Both the position numbers and the translations under genes were made by a program. Under the pieces are notes generated by a model. The model did not search any database and had not been told where the DNA came from. It saw only the letters and a program-made list of their open reading frames with translations. This document shows positions 8,679 through 37,299 of a stretch of 64,000 nt of DNA, in pieces. The DNA is taken from NCBI RefSeq assembly GCF_014279655.1, contig NZ_CP047946.1, positions 682,001 through 746,000 on the forward strand, written 5' to 3'. This DNA comes from Synechococcus sp. ROS8604. GTDB taxonomy: Bacteria; Cyanobacteriota; Cyanobacteriia; PCC-6307; Cyanobiaceae. Position 1 is the stretch's first letter; each line of letters opens with the position of its first letter.

Positions 8679-8979
8679 TGAATTTTAAATCCTGAAAGAC
8701 GGTATTAGTTGATCATTCGAAAAACAGAAAATAAGGCTATTTTGTTGATTAGTATATGATGTTTTAACGGATGATGTGGTCTTGGGGAAATTATTTTTGT
8801 TTGACAGTAATAGTTTAAATTAATAAAAAGTCAGTGTATTAGCAGCATGCAGGTTGAGAATGGCTTGTGCATCCAGAGTTTGGATTACAAGTTTTTTTAA
8901 AATATGATCTTGCCCTCATCCTCAACTTTCTTATATCGGTCGATGGAAATGATTTGAACAGTTGTTGCTAAATTGTTAT
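8679..8979. other. AT-rich gap at the left edge of the island
   Basis: About 300 bases with no convincing gene. Composition drops sharply compared with the queA side. I see no integrase, tRNA or clear terminator. It lies between the 3' ends of queA and the first minus-strand island gene, so it must hold the ends of both transcripts. Confidence 0.6.
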
Positions 8980-29372: not shown

Positions 29373-30257
29373 GTGAAAGCTAACCAATCCTCGTCGGCTC
29401 TTACTGGTTTCCTTCTCCGTTTTGTTGGCCTGCAATTTGTTGCTCTTATTTTAGCACTAGTTTTAATTGTCTCGGGGTATACCTTGGTGACAAGAACCTA
29501 CGTTCGCTTTCAGGCTTCGCAGGTGATGGACGTTATGTTGGCTGTTCGTGAATATACTTCTAGGAAAATTAATCCATTGATTGCCCCTATCAATGACACT
29601 TCTGATGAGGCATTTATTCCTGAAGCTGTTCCAAGTTATTCTGCTACGAAGGTATTCGAATATCTAAGATTGAATAATGCATATTCTGATTTCCAATATC
29701 GAGAAGCTGCACTCAATCCAACAAGTCCCTCGGATCGCGCGAGTGCTACTGAAGCGGAAATTATTGGTCGGTTTGAAGGCAACCCTCGTTTAAGAGAGAT
29801 TAGCGGTATTTTAAATGATAATAGTGATCATAATCAATATTTTCTCGCCAAGCCCATTCGGCTTTCAAAAGAAAGTTGTTTGGTCTGTCACTCAACACCC
29901 GATAGAGCTCCTAAAAGCCAACTTATAGCCTATGGAGATAAGAATGGATTTGGATGGAAGCTGGGTGATGTTGTTGGTGCTCAGATCGTGTCAATTCCGA
30001 TTGATTCCGGTTTGCCGTCTCCAGCGCGTTTTGTCCTTCTGCTTGTTTTAGCTGTTGGACTTATGTCTTTGGCTGTGGTTGTGGTGGGTCAACGCTTTTT
30101 TGAAGCTCTTATTGCTCGTCCACTAAGACAAGTCTTGCGACTTGTGAGTGATGAGTCTTGTGGGGCCGATGAAGATTCAAGGCATCTGCATCAACGTCAA
30201 GATGAGTTTGGTAAGTTGTCTCGATGGATTTCCAGCCTTCGTGATTCCTTGAAGTGA
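29373..30257 (+). CDS. membrane sensor with DUF3365 (Tll0287-like) haem domain
   Basis: 294 residues, GTG start. One N-terminal membrane helix (about 14-40), an extracytoplasmic domain (about 45-215) carrying a single c-type haem motif CLVCHS (around 170), a second helix (about 222-245) and a short HAMP-like cytosolic tail (RPLRQVLRLV, then EFGKLSRWISSLRDSL). DUF3365 domains with CxxCH bind haem and are thought to sense redox state or gas. No kinase or output domain follows, so a partner would be needed. The gene is convergent with the ligand-gated channel homologue, 48 bases apart. Confidence 0.75.
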   Translation: MKANQSSSALTGFLLRFVGLQFVALILALVLIVSGYTLVTRTYVRFQASQVMDVMLAVREYTSRKINPLIAPINDTSDEAFIPEAVPSYSATKVFEYLRLNNAYSDFQYREAALNPTSPSDRASATEAEIIGRFEGNPRLREISGILNDNSDHNQYFLAKPIRLSKESCLVCHSTPDRAPKSQLIAYGDKNGFGWKLGDVVGAQIVSIPIDSGLPSPARFVLLLVLAVGLMSLAVVVVGQRFFEALIARPLRQVLRLVSDESCGADEDSRHLHQRQDEFGKLSRWISSLRDSLK

Positions 30258-30305
30258 GCCTTAAGATTCTTTGTATAGGATCAATTGGCTTCTTGCCTTT
30301 TCTTT

Positions 30306-31463
30306 TTAACTTAGCGCAATCCAAGCAAAAAGACCTTGAGATGCTATGAAGGTTGCTGGAAGGAAGATTTCCATGATTCTTTCGAGTGTTGGAACGCGTT
30401 CTGAGCCTTCTTTTGCAATTGTTTGTGAGATGTAATAAGCGATGAAGACTTCTGAAATCATAAACACGAATAGAAAGATTGTATAAGTATCGCCTAGGGT
30501 TAGATACGGGACTCTTGGTACTGAACTTGTGATAATGATTTGGTAAGCAAGAGTTGTAAACAGCAGTCCGGAAATGAATGCCAGTCTGTCCGCAAATGCC
30601 TCTAAAGGGATGGCTAGGAAAAAGATACTTGTGAAGGTGAGAATCCCTAGTGGTAGGAATATTTTGTAGATAAAGTGGCCTGACCGTCTTGAGATTGTTA
30701 TCGTCGCTGATAATCTTGAGAATTCGTTGCTTCCTTGCTCAGGGTCGTCATGGTTGCGAATTATATAATCTAAATTTTTAATTTTCCATTCTGGAAGCTT
30801 GGAGTTTTTGCTTAGGCTTACGACATCTCCAAGTTCGACTAGCTTGATTACATTCTTGTCCCAGCTAAAGGACTGTACATATAAGTGCAGGAGTTGCTGG
30901 TCAAAGGGGAATTTTTCGAGTCTAAATTCTGAGCCAAGTCCTTCCTCAAAACGCGCTTTCCTTTCAACTGCTCCACTGCGATGCAGCGTGATGGTTTGAG
31001 TTTGGTAAAAGGCTTCGCTGACGCGATTTGTAAATTCAAGCTGAGGAACCCAATGGGATCCCATCCAGTCCTCCGCAGCGGATTTGAACAGAACGAGCTC
31101 ATCTTCATCCTCCGGAAGATCGCTGATGATGCGTGGATCGCACCATGTGGAAGTCAGTAATCCATCAAGCTGAAAATTATTGTGTGTATCGGAGATTGAA
31201 GGCAATTCATTGATGTGGATGCTGACTCCCACAGGAATGGGTTTGAGCTTTGAGATTGGTTGCGGCGGCGCCAATGGATGAGTGGGTAAAAGCTCTTTCT
31301 CTGGGCAGCCGTATTCGGAAATATTGAGCTGAGATAAATCTTTGATTCTATTCGCTTGTCCAGGGATATATTCAACTGCACCTGATGGAGAATGGACTCC
31401 TATCCATAGACAGAAGGATATCAATGCTGCAAAAAATGCACCAATTTGCTTTCTTCGTGCCAC
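30306..31463 (-). CDS. pentameric ligand-gated ion channel homologue (GLIC-type, Cys-loop superfamily)
   Basis: 385 residues. Signal peptide (about 1-30), then a beta-sandwich ligand domain (about 75-260) with VSIHINELPSISDTHNNF, the Trp-containing TSTWCDPR, WVPQLEF and the hallmark Pro-loop FPFDQQLLHLY at 185-195. As in other prokaryotic members, the flanking disulfide cysteines are absent. Four membrane helices follow (about 266-285, 291-313, 324-346, 363-384). The M2 region RLAFISGLLFTTLAYQIIIT followed by SSVPRVPYLT lines up well with the pore helix of GLIC. It should form a homopentameric plasma-membrane channel opened by a ligand or protons. Ligand and ion selectivity cannot be read from sequence. 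Confidence 0.88.
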   Translation of the reverse strand: MARRKQIGAFFAALISFCLWIGVHSPSGAVEYIPGQANRIKDLSQLNISEYGCPEKELLPTHPLAPPQPISKLKPIPVGVSIHINELPSISDTHNNFQLDGLLTSTWCDPRIISDLPEDEDELVLFKSAAEDWMGSHWVPQLEFTNRVSEAFYQTQTITLHRSGAVERKARFEEGLGSEFRLEKFPFDQQLLHLYVQSFSWDKNVIKLVELGDVVSLSKNSKLPEWKIKNLDYIIRNHDDPEQGSNEFSRLSATITISRRSGHFIYKIFLPLGILTFTSIFFLAIPLEAFADRLAFISGLLFTTLAYQIIITSSVPRVPYLTLGDTYTIFLFVFMISEVFIAYYISQTIAKEGSERVPTLERIMEIFLPATFIASQGLFAWIALS

Positions 31464-31568
31464 GTATAAAAAGCACTACAGGATTTTGAAACGATAATCC
31501 CTGATTGGGGGGCAAAATATTTTGCGTTTAAGCACACCTCGTTAAGATGTAAGCATCTATTTGGTCTG

Positions 31569-31802
31569 TTGGCCGTGATCGAGACATGGATCAGCCGGTT
31601 GATGCTCGGCTTGATCGGCATCTATCGCACTTGGATTTCACCCTTGATCGGCCCTCGGTGTCGGTTTATCCCAACCTGTAGTGCTTACGGGATCGAGGCG
31701 ATTCAGCGCCATGGCCCTTGGCGTGGTGGTTGGTTAACCCTGCGTCGTTTGCTGCGCTGCCATCCCTTTACTCCCTGCGGCTGTGACCCCGTCCCCGATT
31801 GA
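31569..31802 (+). CDS. yidD: membrane protein insertion efficiency factor YidD
   Basis: 77 residues. The YidD signature is complete: [20 protein letters not shown], then [18 protein letters not shown] and [12 protein letters not shown]. It is a membrane-associated helper of YidC in inserting inner-membrane proteins. Start is TTG at 31569 or GTG at 31575. Its 3' end overlaps the next gene by 20 bases. Confidence 0.92.
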
Positions 31803-32091
31803 TTCACGGCGATTGTTGCTCTTTAGCAGGGCTGGTTGTTGTCTCTGTGAGGGGCTCGAACAGCGCTTGCGAGATCTCAATCTTGAGCAAGATGTTCATC
31901 CCCTACAGCTTGAGGTGGTGGATATTGATTCACCCGAATGTCCAGTGTCATTGCGCGCGCGTTATGACCTCGAGGTTCCCGTTTTGGTCTTGGACGACAC
32001 GGAGCTCCCTCGCGTTTCCCCCAGATTGAGTGGGGATGGATTGCGCAATTGGTTGCAGCGGGTCTGTTCCACTGGGACAGGTTCGGATTAG
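31783..32091 (+). CDS. glutaredoxin-like thioredoxin-fold protein
   Basis: 102 residues, GTG start inside the end of yidD. The redox centre is [12 protein letters not shown] (CxxC near residue 19), followed by the cis-Pro segment [20 protein letters not shown]. It belongs to the glutaredoxin-like DUF836 group found next to yidD or murE in cyanobacteria. Probable role in thiol-disulfide exchange; partner unknown. Confidence 0.78.
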
Positions 32092-32116
32092 AAAACCCTC
32101 CTGTGGTGCCCCAGCG

Positions 32117-33640
32117 ATGACCCAGACACTCCATGCTTTGCTCCATTCGGTGGGTTTGCCTGTCCCCCAGGGCTCGGTCGATGTCGTGATCGAATCGATC
32201 ACCTGTGATTCACGTGGCGTAGGGCCTGGGAGTTTGTTCATCGGTCTTCCCGGCGGAAGGGTGGATGGAGGCAGCTTTTGGCCTAATGCTCTCGCTGATG
32301 GTGCTGCCGCTGTACTGATTGGCTCAGCTGCCGCTGCTGCTAAGCCTCCTGAACACAGCGACGCTGTGGTGGTGGTGCCTGATCCAGTTGCTCTCTGGGC
32401 TGGTGAGCTGGCAGCAGCTTTTTGGAATTACCCCAGTGATCGCATCGGCTTGATTGGGGTTACGGGCACCAATGGCAAAACCACCACGACGCATTTGATT
32501 GAACATTTGAGTTCGGCCTGTGGGCGTCCTTCTGCTCTGTTTGGAACCCTTCTGAATCGCTGGCCTGGCCATAGCGTGACCGCAACGCACACCACCGCTG
32601 TGGCTGATCGGCTGCAGGCTCAGCTCGCTGAGGCCTGTGCCGCTGGCGCTGAGATCACGGCCATGGAGGTGAGTTCCCACGCCCTTGATCAGCATCGGGT
32701 GGCTGGATGCCGCTTCTCTGGTGCTGTGTTCACCAATCTCACTCAGGACCATCTCGATTATCACGAGACGATGGCGTCTTATTTTGAAGCCAAAGCTCGC
32801 CTGTTTGCCACACCGCTTGCCCCACCTCTGGTCGCTGATCGTGGGGCTCAATTTGTCGTGAATGTGGACGACCCTTGGGGAAAACAACTAGCGGAGCGGT
32901 TGGGCGATCGTTGTTGGCGGAGTTCGTTATCCGAGGGCTCAGTTTCTGCAGAATTGACGATGTCTGATTTGGTGATGGGCTCGTCTGGGGTTGAAGGCCG
33001 CCTGTTGAGTCCGGTTGGTGAGGGCTCGTTTCACTCTCCACTGCTGGGTCGATTCAATGTGATGAATCTGTTGCAGGCCGTAGGGGTCTTGCTTCAGCAA
33101 GGTCTCCCTTTGGAGCCGCTCCTTGAAGCCATCAGCACATTCGGGGGCGTTCCTGGTCGGATGGAACGGGTTGTTGTGACCTCAAAGGGGGGAGCGCTGC
33201 CCACGGTCTTGGTGGATTACGCCCATACGCCAGATGGATTACGCAGCGCTTTGAAGGCCTGTCGCCCTTTCGCGGACGGCAAACTGATTTGTGTGTTTGG
33301 TTGCGGCGGTGATAGGGATCGTGGCAAGCGTCCGCAGATGGCTGCGATTGCGTCAGAGCTTGCTGATGGTGTGGTGGTGACTTCTGATAATCCACGCACA
33401 GAAAATCCTCAACAAATCCTGGATGATGTTGTGAGTGGAATTCCTAATGGAACTGCGTTAACGGTGACCCTGGATCGAGCTGAAGCCATTGCGGAAGCGA
33501 TTCAGAATGCTGGCTCACAAGACCTTGTTCTCATTGCTGGTAAAGGTCATGAGGATTATCAAATTCTGGGTACCGAAAAAATTCATTTTGATGACCGTGA
33601 ACAGGCTTTAAAAGCCCTGCAAGATAAATTGAGCTCTTAA
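32117..33640 (+). CDS. murE: UDP-MurNAc-L-Ala-D-Glu:meso-diaminopimelate ligase
   Basis: 507 residues from the ATG at 32117. The Mur ligase P-loop [14 protein letters not shown] is at about 114-127, [11 protein letters not shown] and [15 protein letters not shown] follow, and the C-terminal domain has DYAHTPDGL and [14 protein letters not shown]. The specificity motif DNPR (about 424-427) marks meso-diaminopimelate as the substrate, as expected for a Gram-negative wall. Adds the third residue to the peptidoglycan stem. It follows the glutaredoxin-like gene by 25 bases. Confidence 0.96.
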
Positions 33641-33658
33641 ACGTCTATTCTTAAACTT

Positions 33659-34804
33659 CTAACTTGGGTAGTAGTAAAAAGCTGCTCCGAAAATCGAAAA
33701 CATTCCTAGGAGCAAAACACCTTCCAGCCAATTTGATTTTGCGTCCATATTGACAAGGTTCACAATTAAGACGCTAAAGATGAGTGCGATGACTTCGAAG
33801 GCTGTGAAGTCAAGATTCATGGGCTGACCGATCACAGATCCAATCATGATCAGTGCTGGCGCGATTAGTAGGGCAACAAGCAAGCTGGATCCCATCGCTA
33901 AAGAAATGGGGAGATCCATTTGATTTTTTAAGGCCCCTTTAACGGCAGGCACATACTCTGAAAACCCCCCAATGATCGGAATGATGATGATTCCGGTGAA
34001 TAGGGCGCTGAAACCGAGCTGTTCTGTGGCAGGCTCTAAAAAATGAACAAAGCTTTCAGATTGATAAGCCAAGCACGCCGTGCTAAGAATTAATTGAATA
34101 ATCCAAGGTCCTAAGTTTATTTTTTTTACTGCATCTTGAGGCGAGTCAGCGTCATCGCTTTGGATGTAGTTGGGGTCAAATAGATGGCTGTGGGTTGCGA
34201 GTGAGAATGTTAGCGTTAAGAAGTAAATAACAATAAGGATCGCCGCGACAGTCATTGATAGGCCATGAATTGCGATGGGATCATCGATTCCTGATGTGCT
34301 GATGAGGGATGCAGGTAGGGCCATCGCCATGACAGCTAAGGTCATAGCCGCACCGTTGGTGCGAACCATGGTTTCCTGAAAACTTTGTTCGCTGTATTTC
34401 AAACCACCTACAAGCATCGCCACGCCCGTAACGAGAAGTAGATCGGAGAGAATCGCTCCAGTAATACTCGCTTTGACAACATCGATAAGGCCCAACCTTA
34501 GAGCCGATAGGGCAATAATAAATTCAGCACAATTGCCAAACACTGCGGTGCAGATGGCTCCAATCGTTGCTCCGCTATGTTCTGCAATCTCTTCCGTTGC
34601 ATCGCTAAGCAACAGGGCGATCGGAATGATGCCTGTCGCTGAAACAATGAAACAAAGCAGAGTTGGCCAACCCTGCATCGAGGCCAGCTGTGTTAGCCCC
34701 AGCATGAGTAGCGCTGGAATCAGCTTCCAGCGTCCGGATTGGACGAAGGAGGATATCAAGCTTTGGGGTATGAGTTCGTCGACTTTATGAAGGGCTGAGC
34801 GCAT
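33659..34804 (-). CDS. Ca2+/H+ antiporter (CAX/ChaA family)
   Basis: 381 residues with about eleven membrane helices. The first alpha repeat carries GAICTAVFGNCAEFIIALSA and the second GGFSEYVPAVKGALKNQMDL, the two acidic motifs that bind the cation in the CAX family. A polar acidic loop (about 220-235, SDDADSPQD) separates the halves, as usual. It should export Ca2+ in exchange for protons. It lies 49 bases after the periplasmic binding protein gene on the same strand, so the two probably share a transcript. Confidence 0.88.
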   Translation of the reverse strand: MRSALHKVDELIPQSLISSFVQSGRWKLIPALLMLGLTQLASMQGWPTLLCFIVSATGIIPIALLLSDATEEIAEHSGATIGAICTAVFGNCAEFIIALSALRLGLIDVVKASITGAILSDLLLVTGVAMLVGGLKYSEQSFQETMVRTNGAAMTLAVMAMALPASLISTSGIDDPIAIHGLSMTVAAILIVIYFLTLTFSLATHSHLFDPNYIQSDDADSPQDAVKKINLGPWIIQLILSTACLAYQSESFVHFLEPATEQLGFSALFTGIIIIPIIGGFSEYVPAVKGALKNQMDLPISLAMGSSLLVALLIAPALIMIGSVIGQPMNLDFTAFEVIALIFSVLIVNLVNMDAKSNWLEGVLLLGMFSIFGAAFYYYPS

Positions 34805-34853
34805 GTATTGTTTGATGTTGGAATGGGGTTGAGATCCTTGCTACGGCAGAAGT

Positions 34854-36062
34854 TTAGGGCTCCCATTGTTGTGCTCCAAAAAATGTGAGCTCAACGTAAT
34901 TGCTAGCTTGGTTGTTATTGCTTGATAAGTCTAGCTGAAATCCTCCCAAGTCTACTTTTTTAATCGACTTAAGGCTTGTGAGGAGAGTTTCTTTTGTGAG
35001 TGGCCCTTGGACATTTTTGATCCCTTCTGTGATTAATTTGGCTGCCATAAATCCTTCCAGGCTTGTGAAGCCAAAACGGGCTGAAGGATTGTTTACGCGC
35101 ATGAGGCGTTGATACTCTGCGACAACAGGAATCCAGCGGTCCCAGGGAAAGGGAACGACTTGGCTAACCCCAATGCCATTGGCTTGTCCTACAGGCAGTG
35201 ATTGTTCAAGGGCTCTGGTGCCAACAAAAGACACATTCATGATTTGGGCTTTTGTATCTCGTTTTAGTAACTCTTTGCTTAACGCTGCTGAGCTGACGTA
35301 TGTCGAAATGATGATGATGGCGTTTGGTTGAGTGGATGTTAGGACTTGAAGTGCTGATTGTATTTGTGCAGAGTTCCTTTGAACTGTGGAGATTGCATAT
35401 GGTTTTAGGCCGTGCCTTTTTAGTGCTGATTCTGCAGATTTAAGTCCATCTTTCCCGAAGGCGTCATCTTGATAGATAATGGCTATTTTCTGTCTCGCAT
35501 TTCGAACAAGACTATCCACAATTTTATCGATTTCCATTTGATAGCTGGCCCTTAAATTCACCACCATTTTCAATTCGTTGTCTCGCAGGATTGAAGCGCC
35601 TGTTAGAGGGGCGATGAGGGGGACTTTTCTTTTTTCAATGACGGGAAGGATCTCTTTTGTTGTTGGTGTGCCTACGTACCCAAATAAGGCGAGAAGGTTG
35701 GGGCGGTCCAGCAGGGTTTTCGTGTTTCTGATGGTTTGCTCAGGCTCATACTGGTCGTCGAGGCTAATCAAGCGGATTTTTTTTCCGTTGATTCCTCCCT
35801 GTCGATTCACTTCGTTAAACCATGCTTCCGCTCCAGCTTGATATTTTTTCCCGATTTGAGCTGAAGGTCCGCTCAGTGGTAAGGATTGACCGAGGAGGAT
35901 CGTGCTTTTGCTATCAGAGTATGTTTGGGATTCTTTTTGTTGGGCTGATGTGGAGGCGATCGATAGACTGAGTCCAATTACTATAAGGGTATTTCTATGA
36001 AGAATCGTTGCTATTGGCTTAACCCGTAAAACACTTGTTTGATTCGCTGCTTTTTTTTTCAT
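34854..36062 (-). CDS. stand-alone type I periplasmic binding protein (Leu/Ile/Val-binding type)
   Basis: 402 residues from the ATG at 36062; the frame is open 25 codons further into the antisense of the next gene. A signal region (LIVIGLSLSIASTSAQ) is followed by a Peripla_BP_6 fold: LLGQSLPLSGPSAQIGKKYQ, WFNEVNRQGGINGKKIRLIS, DDQYEPEQTIRNTKTLL and FGYVGTPTTKEILPV. Binds amino acids or similar small ligands. No permease or ATPase gene is near, so it is more likely a receptor than a transporter part. It is divergent from the channel-like gene at 36061: their ATG codons share two bases. Confidence 0.82.
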   Translation of the reverse strand: MKKKAANQTSVLRVKPIATILHRNTLIVIGLSLSIASTSAQQKESQTYSDSKSTILLGQSLPLSGPSAQIGKKYQAGAEAWFNEVNRQGGINGKKIRLISLDDQYEPEQTIRNTKTLLDRPNLLALFGYVGTPTTKEILPVIEKRKVPLIAPLTGASILRDNELKMVVNLRASYQMEIDKIVDSLVRNARQKIAIIYQDDAFGKDGLKSAESALKRHGLKPYAISTVQRNSAQIQSALQVLTSTQPNAIIIISTYVSSAALSKELLKRDTKAQIMNVSFVGTRALEQSLPVGQANGIGVSQVVPFPWDRWIPVVAEYQRLMRVNNPSARFGFTSLEGFMAAKLITEGIKNVQGPLTKETLLTSLKSIKKVDLGGFQLDLSSNNNQASNYVELTFFGAQQWEP

Positions 36063-37299
36063 GACGAAGGTTCGAAGACGGAGAAAGTGGAACATCTTGG
36101 CGATCGCGTCAGTTGTGCTGGCAGCCTTGCTTTCCATCGTTGGAGTTACTAGTTTAAATGTTGATCAAGTGCCAGGTCGTGATTCCCTGCGCCTTTCTTC
36201 AGCTTCTCGTGCTTTGACGACATCAGTGGATCGTCTTCCTCGAGATGGCTGGAGTTCTCAGCGAGGAGAATCGTTGAGTGGAGGTGAAATTCAAGCTGAT
36301 ATTGATGCCTTGGATGATGCGCTATATCATGTAAAGATTGGGGTGTATTCAAATAGTACTTATGATTTAGATTTAAGTATTCCTAGCTTTTCGTCAAACG
36401 GCTATGTATGGATGCGTTGGAAGCAGCCTCTTCAGGATTACTTAGAGGCAAACGATACGGATTTGCAAGAGCATATTTCGTTGCTGAATGCGTTGTTGTC
36501 TGACGCGGATCCTGTGTTGCATCCTGTGCAAGATAAGCCAGCAATTTTGTCTGATGGTACCTACTATCAGCTTTATACTTATGTTGGACGTTTTTATATC
36601 GATCGAGCAAGCTTTAGACATTTTCCTTTCCTTACAATTAGTTTGCCGATTGCGATCGAGGCTGATGATGTAGCTGGTGGTCTTGGCTATGGAACACTAC
36701 GTTTTGAACCTGATAGTCGTAATAGCGGGATGGGTCTCTATGCGGGTACGGGAATCATTGGTTGGTTGAACCGAGGCTGGTCGATTGCTGAGTACCGCCA
36801 TAACTATGCTACCAATTTTGGCCTGGGTGGACTTGATCGAGACTATAGTCTTATTCTTTATGATATTACGTTTGGAACCTCATCCTGGTCCTCTTTTTGG
36901 CGCTTGATGTTGCCTTTGTTGGTGGTCATGGTGATGGTCCTACTCGTATTCAAAATCCGTCCAGATGAACAAGACGCCCGAGCCGGAATTCCGGTAACAG
37001 TTTTGTTGACTTTGGTTTTCTTGCAGCAGGTCTATCGAGGGGAACTTCCTGATCTTCCCTTCCTGACATTTCTGGATCAGGTCTATGTGATTGCTTATGT
37101 CATTACTTTGTTGGCGTTTGTTTTGTTGGTATGGATTGGACGTCGTTATGCCGATATGGAGAGTATGCCGCTTGGAGAGGCGCGCGATAATCTTTCGAAA
37201 AGACTTGAATTCTTAGATGAGGTTTGGCCGCTTTCTATGGTGTTGTTTTGCTCTATTGCTGTGGTGACTTCTTGGTACTTAATACCCGCAGGGGCTTAA
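36061..37299 (+). CDS. divergent pentameric ligand-gated channel-like membrane protein
   Basis: 412 residues. A membrane or signal segment (about 12-29) precedes a large beta-rich outer domain (about 75-275) that contains DALYHVKIGVYSNSTYDLDL and SNGYVWMRWKQPL, then FRHFPFLTISLPI (185-197), which recalls the FPF part of the Pro-loop. Four C-terminal helices follow (about 279-297, 307-326, 338-359, 388-408). The connector GELPDLPFLTFLDQVYVIAY resembles the M2-M3 linker of ligand-gated channels. The family link is weaker than for 30306 and should be read as a structural suggestion. An alternative is an unrelated sensory membrane protein. Confidence 0.55.
   Translation: MTKVRRRRKWNILAIASVVLAALLSIVGVTSLNVDQVPGRDSLRLSSASRALTTSVDRLPRDGWSSQRGESLSGGEIQADIDALDDALYHVKIGVYSNSTYDLDLSIPSFSSNGYVWMRWKQPLQDYLEANDTDLQEHISLLNALLSDADPVLHPVQDKPAILSDGTYYQLYTYVGRFYIDRASFRHFPFLTISLPIAIEADDVAGGLGYGTLRFEPDSRNSGMGLYAGTGIIGWLNRGWSIAEYRHNYATNFGLGGLDRDYSLILYDITFGTSSWSSFWRLMLPLLVVMVMVLLVFKIRPDEQDARAGIPVTVLLTLVFLQQVYRGELPDLPFLTFLDQVYVIAYVITLLAFVLLVWIGRRYADMESMPLGEARDNLSKRLEFLDEVWPLSMVLFCSIAVVTSWYLIPAGA

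Follow-up and report, generated by a model that had tools for sequence, protein, structure and literature searches.

Bacterial pentameric channels are among the main models for nerve receptors and, to our knowledge, their native roles and ligands are largely unknown. In Tasneem et al. 2004 (PMC549065), type I periplasmic binding protein (PBP) domains fused to pentameric ligand-gated channels (pLGICs) and adjacent stand-alone type II PBP genes were described, and a role in chemoreception was suggested. In a stretch of 64,000 nucleotides from Synechococcus sp. ROS8604 (contig NZ_CP047946.1, positions 682,001 to 746,000; hereafter the window) we found a related arrangement, in which a PBP gene (34854) adjoins a gene for a divergent pLGIC (36061). 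As in the fused forms of Magnetospirillum and Bradyrhizobium presented there, a type I PBP is combined with a pentameric channel, but here two genes, a divergent cyanobacterial channel subfamily and two orientations are involved. With the stand-alone type II neighbours of the same account it shares a separate binding protein and a conserved neighbourhood, although the window protein is of type I (PF13458), not type II. DeCLIC (PMC9897478, PMC12664993) is likewise a bacterial pLGIC with an added periplasmic module; its N-terminal module is built of a fused pair of jelly-roll lobes that carry Ca2+ sites, whereas here the addition is a separate type I PBP.

The fold, the M2 pattern and the Pro-loop proline are common to 36061 and to GLIC, ELIC and sTeLIC, from which 36061 differs in sequence (17–21% identity by structural alignment), in an extra N-terminal helix and linker, and in that the Pro-loop acid and the pre-M1 basic residue are mostly lost. 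AMPA and NMDA receptors also combine a PBP fold with an ion channel, but their PBP domains are fused and the pore is unrelated; these receptors are named as a parallel in PMC549065. A term search of the main text of a later survey (PMC4795631) returned neither 'periplasmic' nor 'operon', and a stand-alone PBP-I/pLGIC pair, a bestrophin-like pair, a partner swap and the linker motif described below were not found in the open-access literature searched. Relative to the literature searched, the arrangement as two genes with a type I PBP, the exchange of partners and the linker motif would be new, the association of PBPs with channels having been proposed already in 2004 (PMC549065).

A binding protein and a channel conserved as a pair

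The survey comprised 201 genomes of the same cyanobacterial family as the window, and types A, B and C of the two proteins were separated by bit scores, identity and tree; one unassigned fragment of 75 aa (G183:C19) is left out of the type counts. Channels of types A and B occupied 31 places in 28 genomes and PBPs of these types 28 places in 25 genomes. The channel adjoined the PBP in 28/28 places, and a PBP was present for 28 of the 31 channels. Counted by genome, 25 had both genes, 3 the channel only, none the PBP only and 173 neither (Fisher p 6e-29, a value that overstates independence since the genomes are related). The original prediction had joined the two genes to a second channel (30306), a CAX antiporter (33659) and a haem sensor (29373); the conserved unit is smaller than this and consists of PBP 34854 and channel 36061.

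A quick, long-branched tree was built from 119 distinct channels of handle and named genomes (Synechococcus and Cyanobium), which overlap with the set of 201. Its type A clade contained 41 paired channels, 3 unpaired ones and 1 at a contig edge, and one further divergent pair (L029/L105) fell outside the clade. We found that type A pairs are arranged divergently and type B pairs convergently, tail to tail, the latter occurring at 2617033–2619227 of the genome that contains the window (2.88 Mb, one contig; handle G000), in G193, in AG-686-F08 and in Synechococcus WH7803 (L123). Beyond the channel, sequence was available for 49 loci, which showed 12 different flanking contexts; beyond the PBP, 43 loci showed 11. 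These counts are approximate because the set of 50 pairs included one false pair and some genomes twice, by handle and by name. One of 41 spacing values (−154) was an artefact of a motif mismatch. Chance adjacency of PBP and channel was ruled out by the co-occurrence and the varied contexts.

Tandem duplicates kept matching partners in both the PBP and the channel trees. L090 and L096 each hold two complete divergent pairs in tandem, and each PBP groups with its own channel's relatives. Mirror-tree analysis gave a correlation between PBP and channel distances of r 0.88 over 41 divergent pairs, which is weak evidence alone since neighbouring genes are inherited together. This analysis used 46 of the 50 detected pairs, the partial ones (L080, L074, L104 and L106) being dropped, and one of the 46, at L106, was false, its channel being a type C copy that neighbours an A pair. 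Furthermore, both the PBP and nearly the whole channel were gone from G101, where the channel's last 27 codons remained between CAX and an aminotransferase gene and where the rpsD, YidD, glutaredoxin (Grx), MurE, CAX, aminotransferase, DUF4079 and hydrolase genes were retained. The pair moves as a unit, with one joint loss (G101).

Several side observations concern individual loci. The 27-codon relic lies in L185 near locus position 8880. The cyanobacterial pair is also present on contigs labelled Bifidobacterium breve (L082) and Phycisphaerae (L117), which look like picocyanobacterial sequence that was binned wrongly. The channel of L104, beside an intact PBP, is broken into two overlapping frames, likely by a frameshift or an assembly error. 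In L083 and L106 a type A pair has a type C channel without a PBP in its vicinity, suggesting clustering of channel genes.

Folds and sequence features of the two proteins

The predicted type I binding protein was confirmed: 34854 matched PF13458 with 163 bits (gathering cut-off 31.7), its nearest PDB entries were 4kv7 (E 1e-55) and 3lop (E 2e-54), and its AlphaFold2 model (predicted local distance difference test score, pLDDT, of 83) reached Z 43 to both. The ATG at 36062 (MKKK...) is the likely start, rather than that of the longer open reading frame at 36137, so that the likely start codons of the divergent PBP and channel genes overlap in one CATG. The two are separate, oppositely oriented open reading frames, with no PBP-I domain fused to the channel.

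PF13458 proteins overall were present in at least 154 of the 201 genomes and the 34854 type in 25. UrtA was rejected as the identity of 34854, which scored 34 bits with TIGR03407 against a cut-off of 492.75, and the possibility raised beforehand that the PBP tracks a urea transporter was not supported. An alignment to LivJ and LivK gave no clear sign of an amino acid as its ligand; the position aligned with Glu226 of LivJ is an invariant Ser in A4. A tblastn search (E 1e-3) covering 53 neighbourhoods (753 kb) of the pair and of PBP relatives gave 0 matches to LivH or LivM permeases, and for permeases of this type the earlier remark that no transporter surrounds the PBP holds. On these two grounds, the second covering neighbourhoods rather than whole genomes, the reading as a subunit of a urea or branched-chain amino-acid importer found no support.

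As a single sequence, 36061 failed the curated Pfam and NCBIfam cut-offs, and its match to NF033918 (E 8e-7) lay far under the cut-off of that model. A profile of its family matched ELIC with E 1e-20, from the extracellular domain through the membrane region, and GLIC with ~E 1e-14. The AlphaFold2 model (pLDDT 81; predicted template modelling score 0.75), a monomer like that of the PBP, matched GLIC, GluCl and sTeLIC at Z 21 (GLIC Z 21.3) over residues 82–409. As judged from profile and model, the divergent channel named in the original prediction is a real but distant pLGIC, with a beta-sandwich extracellular domain predicted to precede four membrane helices. Among 386 sampled genomes from across the phylum, full-length matches were confined to the window's family, and the best matches outside it were ~30% identical and started near residue 84 or later.

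Features of the channel were read from an alignment of 49 rows (Table 1). W10 of the N-terminal helix is present in 41 rows, the remaining 8 being gapped, and the helix presumably stays uncleaved. In the Pro-loop, P189, the tip of the beta6-beta7 loop, and F190 are kept in 49/49 rows, and the usual Asp is lost, position 191 being acidic in just 3. A Pro-loop acid together with a pre-M1 basic residue, at positions taken from the ELIC alignment, occurs in only 2 of the 49 rows; standard gating coupling is therefore not claimed for this subfamily, and coupling probably differs from the usual pLGIC kind. Along M2, −2′ is D or E in 48/49 rows, and 0′ R and 9′ L are invariant. The acid at −2′ and the Arg at 0′, read with the M2 pattern of GLIC, suggest that the pore passes cations.

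Table 1. Window coordinates of the PBP–channel pair and of features within the channel
Feature	Position	Strand	Basis
34854, type I PBP, 402 aa from MKKK, probable signal peptide then PF13458; proposed receptor half	34854..36062	-	domain, model, pairing
36061, divergent pLGIC homologue, 412 aa; proposed effector half of the pair	36061..37299	+	profile, model, pairing
N-terminal helix, residues 2-31, predicted extra membrane anchor ahead of the extracellular domain	36064..36153	+	model
Periplasmic linker, residues 40-80, RDxLRLSS-type pattern, candidate PBP docking element	36178..36300	+	column changes after PBP loss
Pro-loop, residues 188-191, FPFL	36622..36633	+	alignment, 49 rows
Pore helix M2, residues 305-326	36973..37038	+	alignment with GLIC-GlyR chimera for numbering

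Linker changes in channels that lost the binding protein

Paired type A rows share 146 conserved columns, and 12 of these lie in the channel linker. Where type A lineages have lost the PBP (UW140/UW105 and G047), 10 of the 16 changes at conserved columns fell in residues 32–84, compared with 5 of 52 in the paired comparison, in which 26 rows were taken singly. The enrichment (Fisher p ~5e-5) concerns a segment chosen after a first look, related paired rows and two losses, and we therefore treat it as a lead. R40 and R44 were both found in 29/29 paired rows of alignment A3 (27 of type A and 2 of type B). R44 was missing from a type D row neighboured by UrtA; the seven unpaired type C rows had R40 once and R44 never, and neither residue was present in UW140 and UW105. 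In view of the changes that accompany PBP loss, the linker would most likely be the site at which the PBP docks on the channel, and gating by the ligand-bound PBP would most likely be the function of the pair.

Partners of related binding proteins and channels

The role of the PBP was further approached through its relatives. Distant PBP relatives in the phylum lay beside sensors in 4/4 cases, comprising a methyl-accepting chemotaxis protein (MCP), a PilJ-HAMP protein and two sCache-HAMP-PAS-SpoIIE proteins. Ten plasmid regions with PBP relatives were selected across genera, rather than at random, from 73 records (58 of them Phaeobacter); an MCP was adjacent in six (H1, H2, H4, H5, H8 and H48) and a hybrid histidine kinase in one (H7). 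Altogether 11 of the 14 regions had a sensor next to the PBP relative, and the window PBP's own neighbour is a channel. The sensor neighbours of its relatives, along with the lack of LivH/LivM in the neighbourhoods searched, led us to read the window PBP as a sensory head and not as part of an importer. The pairs of substrate-binding protein and MCP annotated on Ruegeria, Phaeobacter, Thioclava and Terrarubrum plasmids belong to the same PBP family (34–37% identity) and are also directly adjacent, but their output is an MCP signalling domain, whereas here it is an ion channel.

A sister group of PBPs (type C, 38–42% identical) directly adjoined a bestrophin-like membrane protein in 7/7 loci, one of them a contig-edge fragment; five of the calls were made by Pfam (PF14023) and two by a home-made profile. 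In each of three loci tested, the gene following the bestrophin-like one encoded a further binding protein (PF12849). PBP and bestrophin-like protein may form a second PBP–channel unit, at L193–L199, L057 and L058.

Channels other than types A and B occupied 67 places, of which 61 were examined as 60 regions and G101 in addition, five short or weak ones being left out (G074:C114, G009, G180:C45, G137:C70 and G044:C13). The idea that all pLGICs carry a PBP was rejected, as a PBP is missing beside type C and beside almost every other channel of the family, and a search for a conserved neighbour common to the unpaired groups gave only unannotated local synteny. Three loci (L074, L147 and L155) had an UrtA-like PBP next to a different pLGIC lineage, an association apparently independent of the window pair; the L147 protein passed the UrtA cut-off and those of L074 and L155 fell short of it. 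At L074:5040-8720 the UrtA-like PBP stands beside two tandem channel genes, and L155 is the same place as L200.

A proposed two-part chemosensor and its alternatives

We favour, with reasonable though far from full confidence, the interpretation that the two genes together specify a chemosensor of two parts. In the periplasm the secreted PBP would capture a small solute; once liganded it would dock on the channel, most likely at the linker between the extra N-terminal membrane helix and the extracellular domain, and docking would shift the open probability of the putative cation pore. Both folds, the conserved pairing, the movement as a unit, the joint loss, the lack of nearby LivH/LivM and the sensor partners elsewhere were computed. 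From these we infer that the PBP docks and where, that in its liganded form it gates the channel, that the pore selects cations, and in which direction the partner changed. Regarding the last of these, the PBP family serves chemotaxis-type receptors or sensor kinases elsewhere, and its output partner would have become a pLGIC in small cyanobacteria and, in the sister PBP group, a bestrophin-like channel. More tentatively, in a proposal about which we are nearly evenly divided and lean towards doubt, the PBP family may be an interchangeable head, used by chemoreceptors and kinases in other bacteria and turned in small cyanobacteria to the opening or closing of two unrelated types of ion channel, a bestrophin-like channel and a pLGIC, on the latter of which it would dock via the linker motif.

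Several points weigh against the chemosensor interpretation. Adjacency and co-inheritance are no proof of contact between PBP and channel, and a shared fold by itself says nothing certain about function. The channels of G141, G156 and G047 have no PBP, showing that the channel can persist alone, and among the 60 further channel regions only two (L147 and L155) had an adjacent PBP of their own, the PBP near the L135 channel belonging to a neighbouring A pair. Three of the ten plasmid regions had no sensor beside the PBP, namely H3, with an HDOD gene 400 bp off, H49, with a short-chain dehydrogenase, and H50, with a hypothetical protein. Concerning the linker, the segment was picked after the alignment had been viewed and rests on two losses, and the PBP-less G047 channel kept R40 and R44, its changes being at L45, R50, G69 and D80.

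The strongest of the other explanations, although an unlikely one, is that the PBP merely concentrates ligand or delivers it to the channel's own site, with no stable contact needed. Such delivery was put forward for bacterial forms by Tasneem et al. (PMC549065), and it accords with the entire pLGIC extracellular fold that the channel retains. The linker changes after PBP loss point instead, post hoc, to contact; in addition, the rarity of the paired Pro-loop acid and pre-M1 base makes standard gating coupling improbable, and the PBP relatives partner receptors having other outer domains.

It is a good deal less probable that the PBP feeds a distant ATP-binding cassette (ABC) transporter and adjoins the channel through shared divergent-promoter regulation only. 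Its fold is that of ABC substrate-binding proteins, and a strong PF13458 protein, probably UrtA, is encoded at G000:C1:2807163. The search of 53 neighbourhoods for LivH/LivM and the low UrtA score given above argue against this, as does the restriction of type A and B PBPs to channel-bearing genomes; moreover, the type B pair is convergent and has no shared divergent promoter.

We consider it scarcely probable that the two genes form a selfish or accessory island, adjacent through joint transfer and with no direct cooperation. Presence is patchy within a genus and the flanking contexts number 11–12, as an island would have it; the two orientations, the specific pairing of paralogues and the fact that UrtA-like PBPs have separately become neighbours of a different pLGIC lineage tell against it.

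Neighbouring genes in the window

The genes named in the original prediction were all located at the positions it had given. The second channel, 30306 (− strand), was verified as a pLGIC by PF02931 (E 4e-15) and by PDB entries for ELIC (E ~1e-28), 33659 (−) as a CAX Ca2+/H+ antiporter by TIGR00378 (317 bits; cut-off 211) and the haem sensor 29373 (+) as a Tll0287-like protein by PF11845 (E 6e-38). Domain searches also agreed that YidD, glutaredoxin-like and MurE genes are interspersed between the other parts. Rfam, tRNA, promoter and terminator scans found nothing.

Clear homologues of 30306 were found in 4 of the 201 genomes (G000, G075, G141 and G081), with marginal matches (E 1e-7 to 1e-3) in six more. 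The co-occurrence anticipated for 30306, 34854 and 36061 was accordingly upheld for the last two (25/3/0/173) and not for 30306, and the notion that the PBP serves the channels survives for 36061, to which it is linked, and not for 30306, which does not travel with the pair. A Tll0287-like gene adjoined the 30306 homologue in G000, G075, G141 and G205, all four same-genus genomes whose channel locus was inspected, and not in G081; the haem sensor accompanies 30306 and not the PBP–channel pair. The two genes stand tail to tail at 29373–31463 of the window and in L063, L064, L065 and L187.

CAX, murE, yidD and rpsD flank the pair in near relatives (L073, L117, G075, G213 and G205), and of the 18 remaining type A loci with at least 2.5 kb beyond the PBP, the only ones counted, as many type A loci end <2 kb from it, none had them beside the pair. 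In G101 the same four genes are kept, and the pair, 30306 and the haem sensor are absent. The proposal that 30306, 36061, PBP, CAX and haem sensor form one fast Ca2+ signalling unit, the least probable of all, draws on the whole neighbourhood in G000, its inverted copy with unchanged order in G205, the same parts within ~8 kb in G075 and the common absence of 30306, haem sensor and pair from G101. It was rejected on gene content and synteny, given the rarity of 30306, CAX beside the pair in close relatives only, CAX without the pair in G101, the absence of 30306 and the haem sensor from G213, which has CAX and the pair, and the absence of CAX and PBP from G141, which has 30306 and the haem sensor. 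None of the observations favoured fast Ca2+ signalling.

Implications

Were the PBP such an interchangeable head, the pair would amount to a ligand-gated channel that binds its ligand through a subunit of its own kind, a separate protein that is soluble and exchangeable. A conserved partner with a definable ligand offers a direct route to what gates a bacterial pLGIC in its own cell, and as Synechococcus WH7803 carries a type B pair, genetics and electrophysiology are possible in a named strain. Should the partner swap prove real, bacterial ion channels could be joined to the same receptor heads that chemotaxis uses, which would bear on the origin of receptor–channel combinations.

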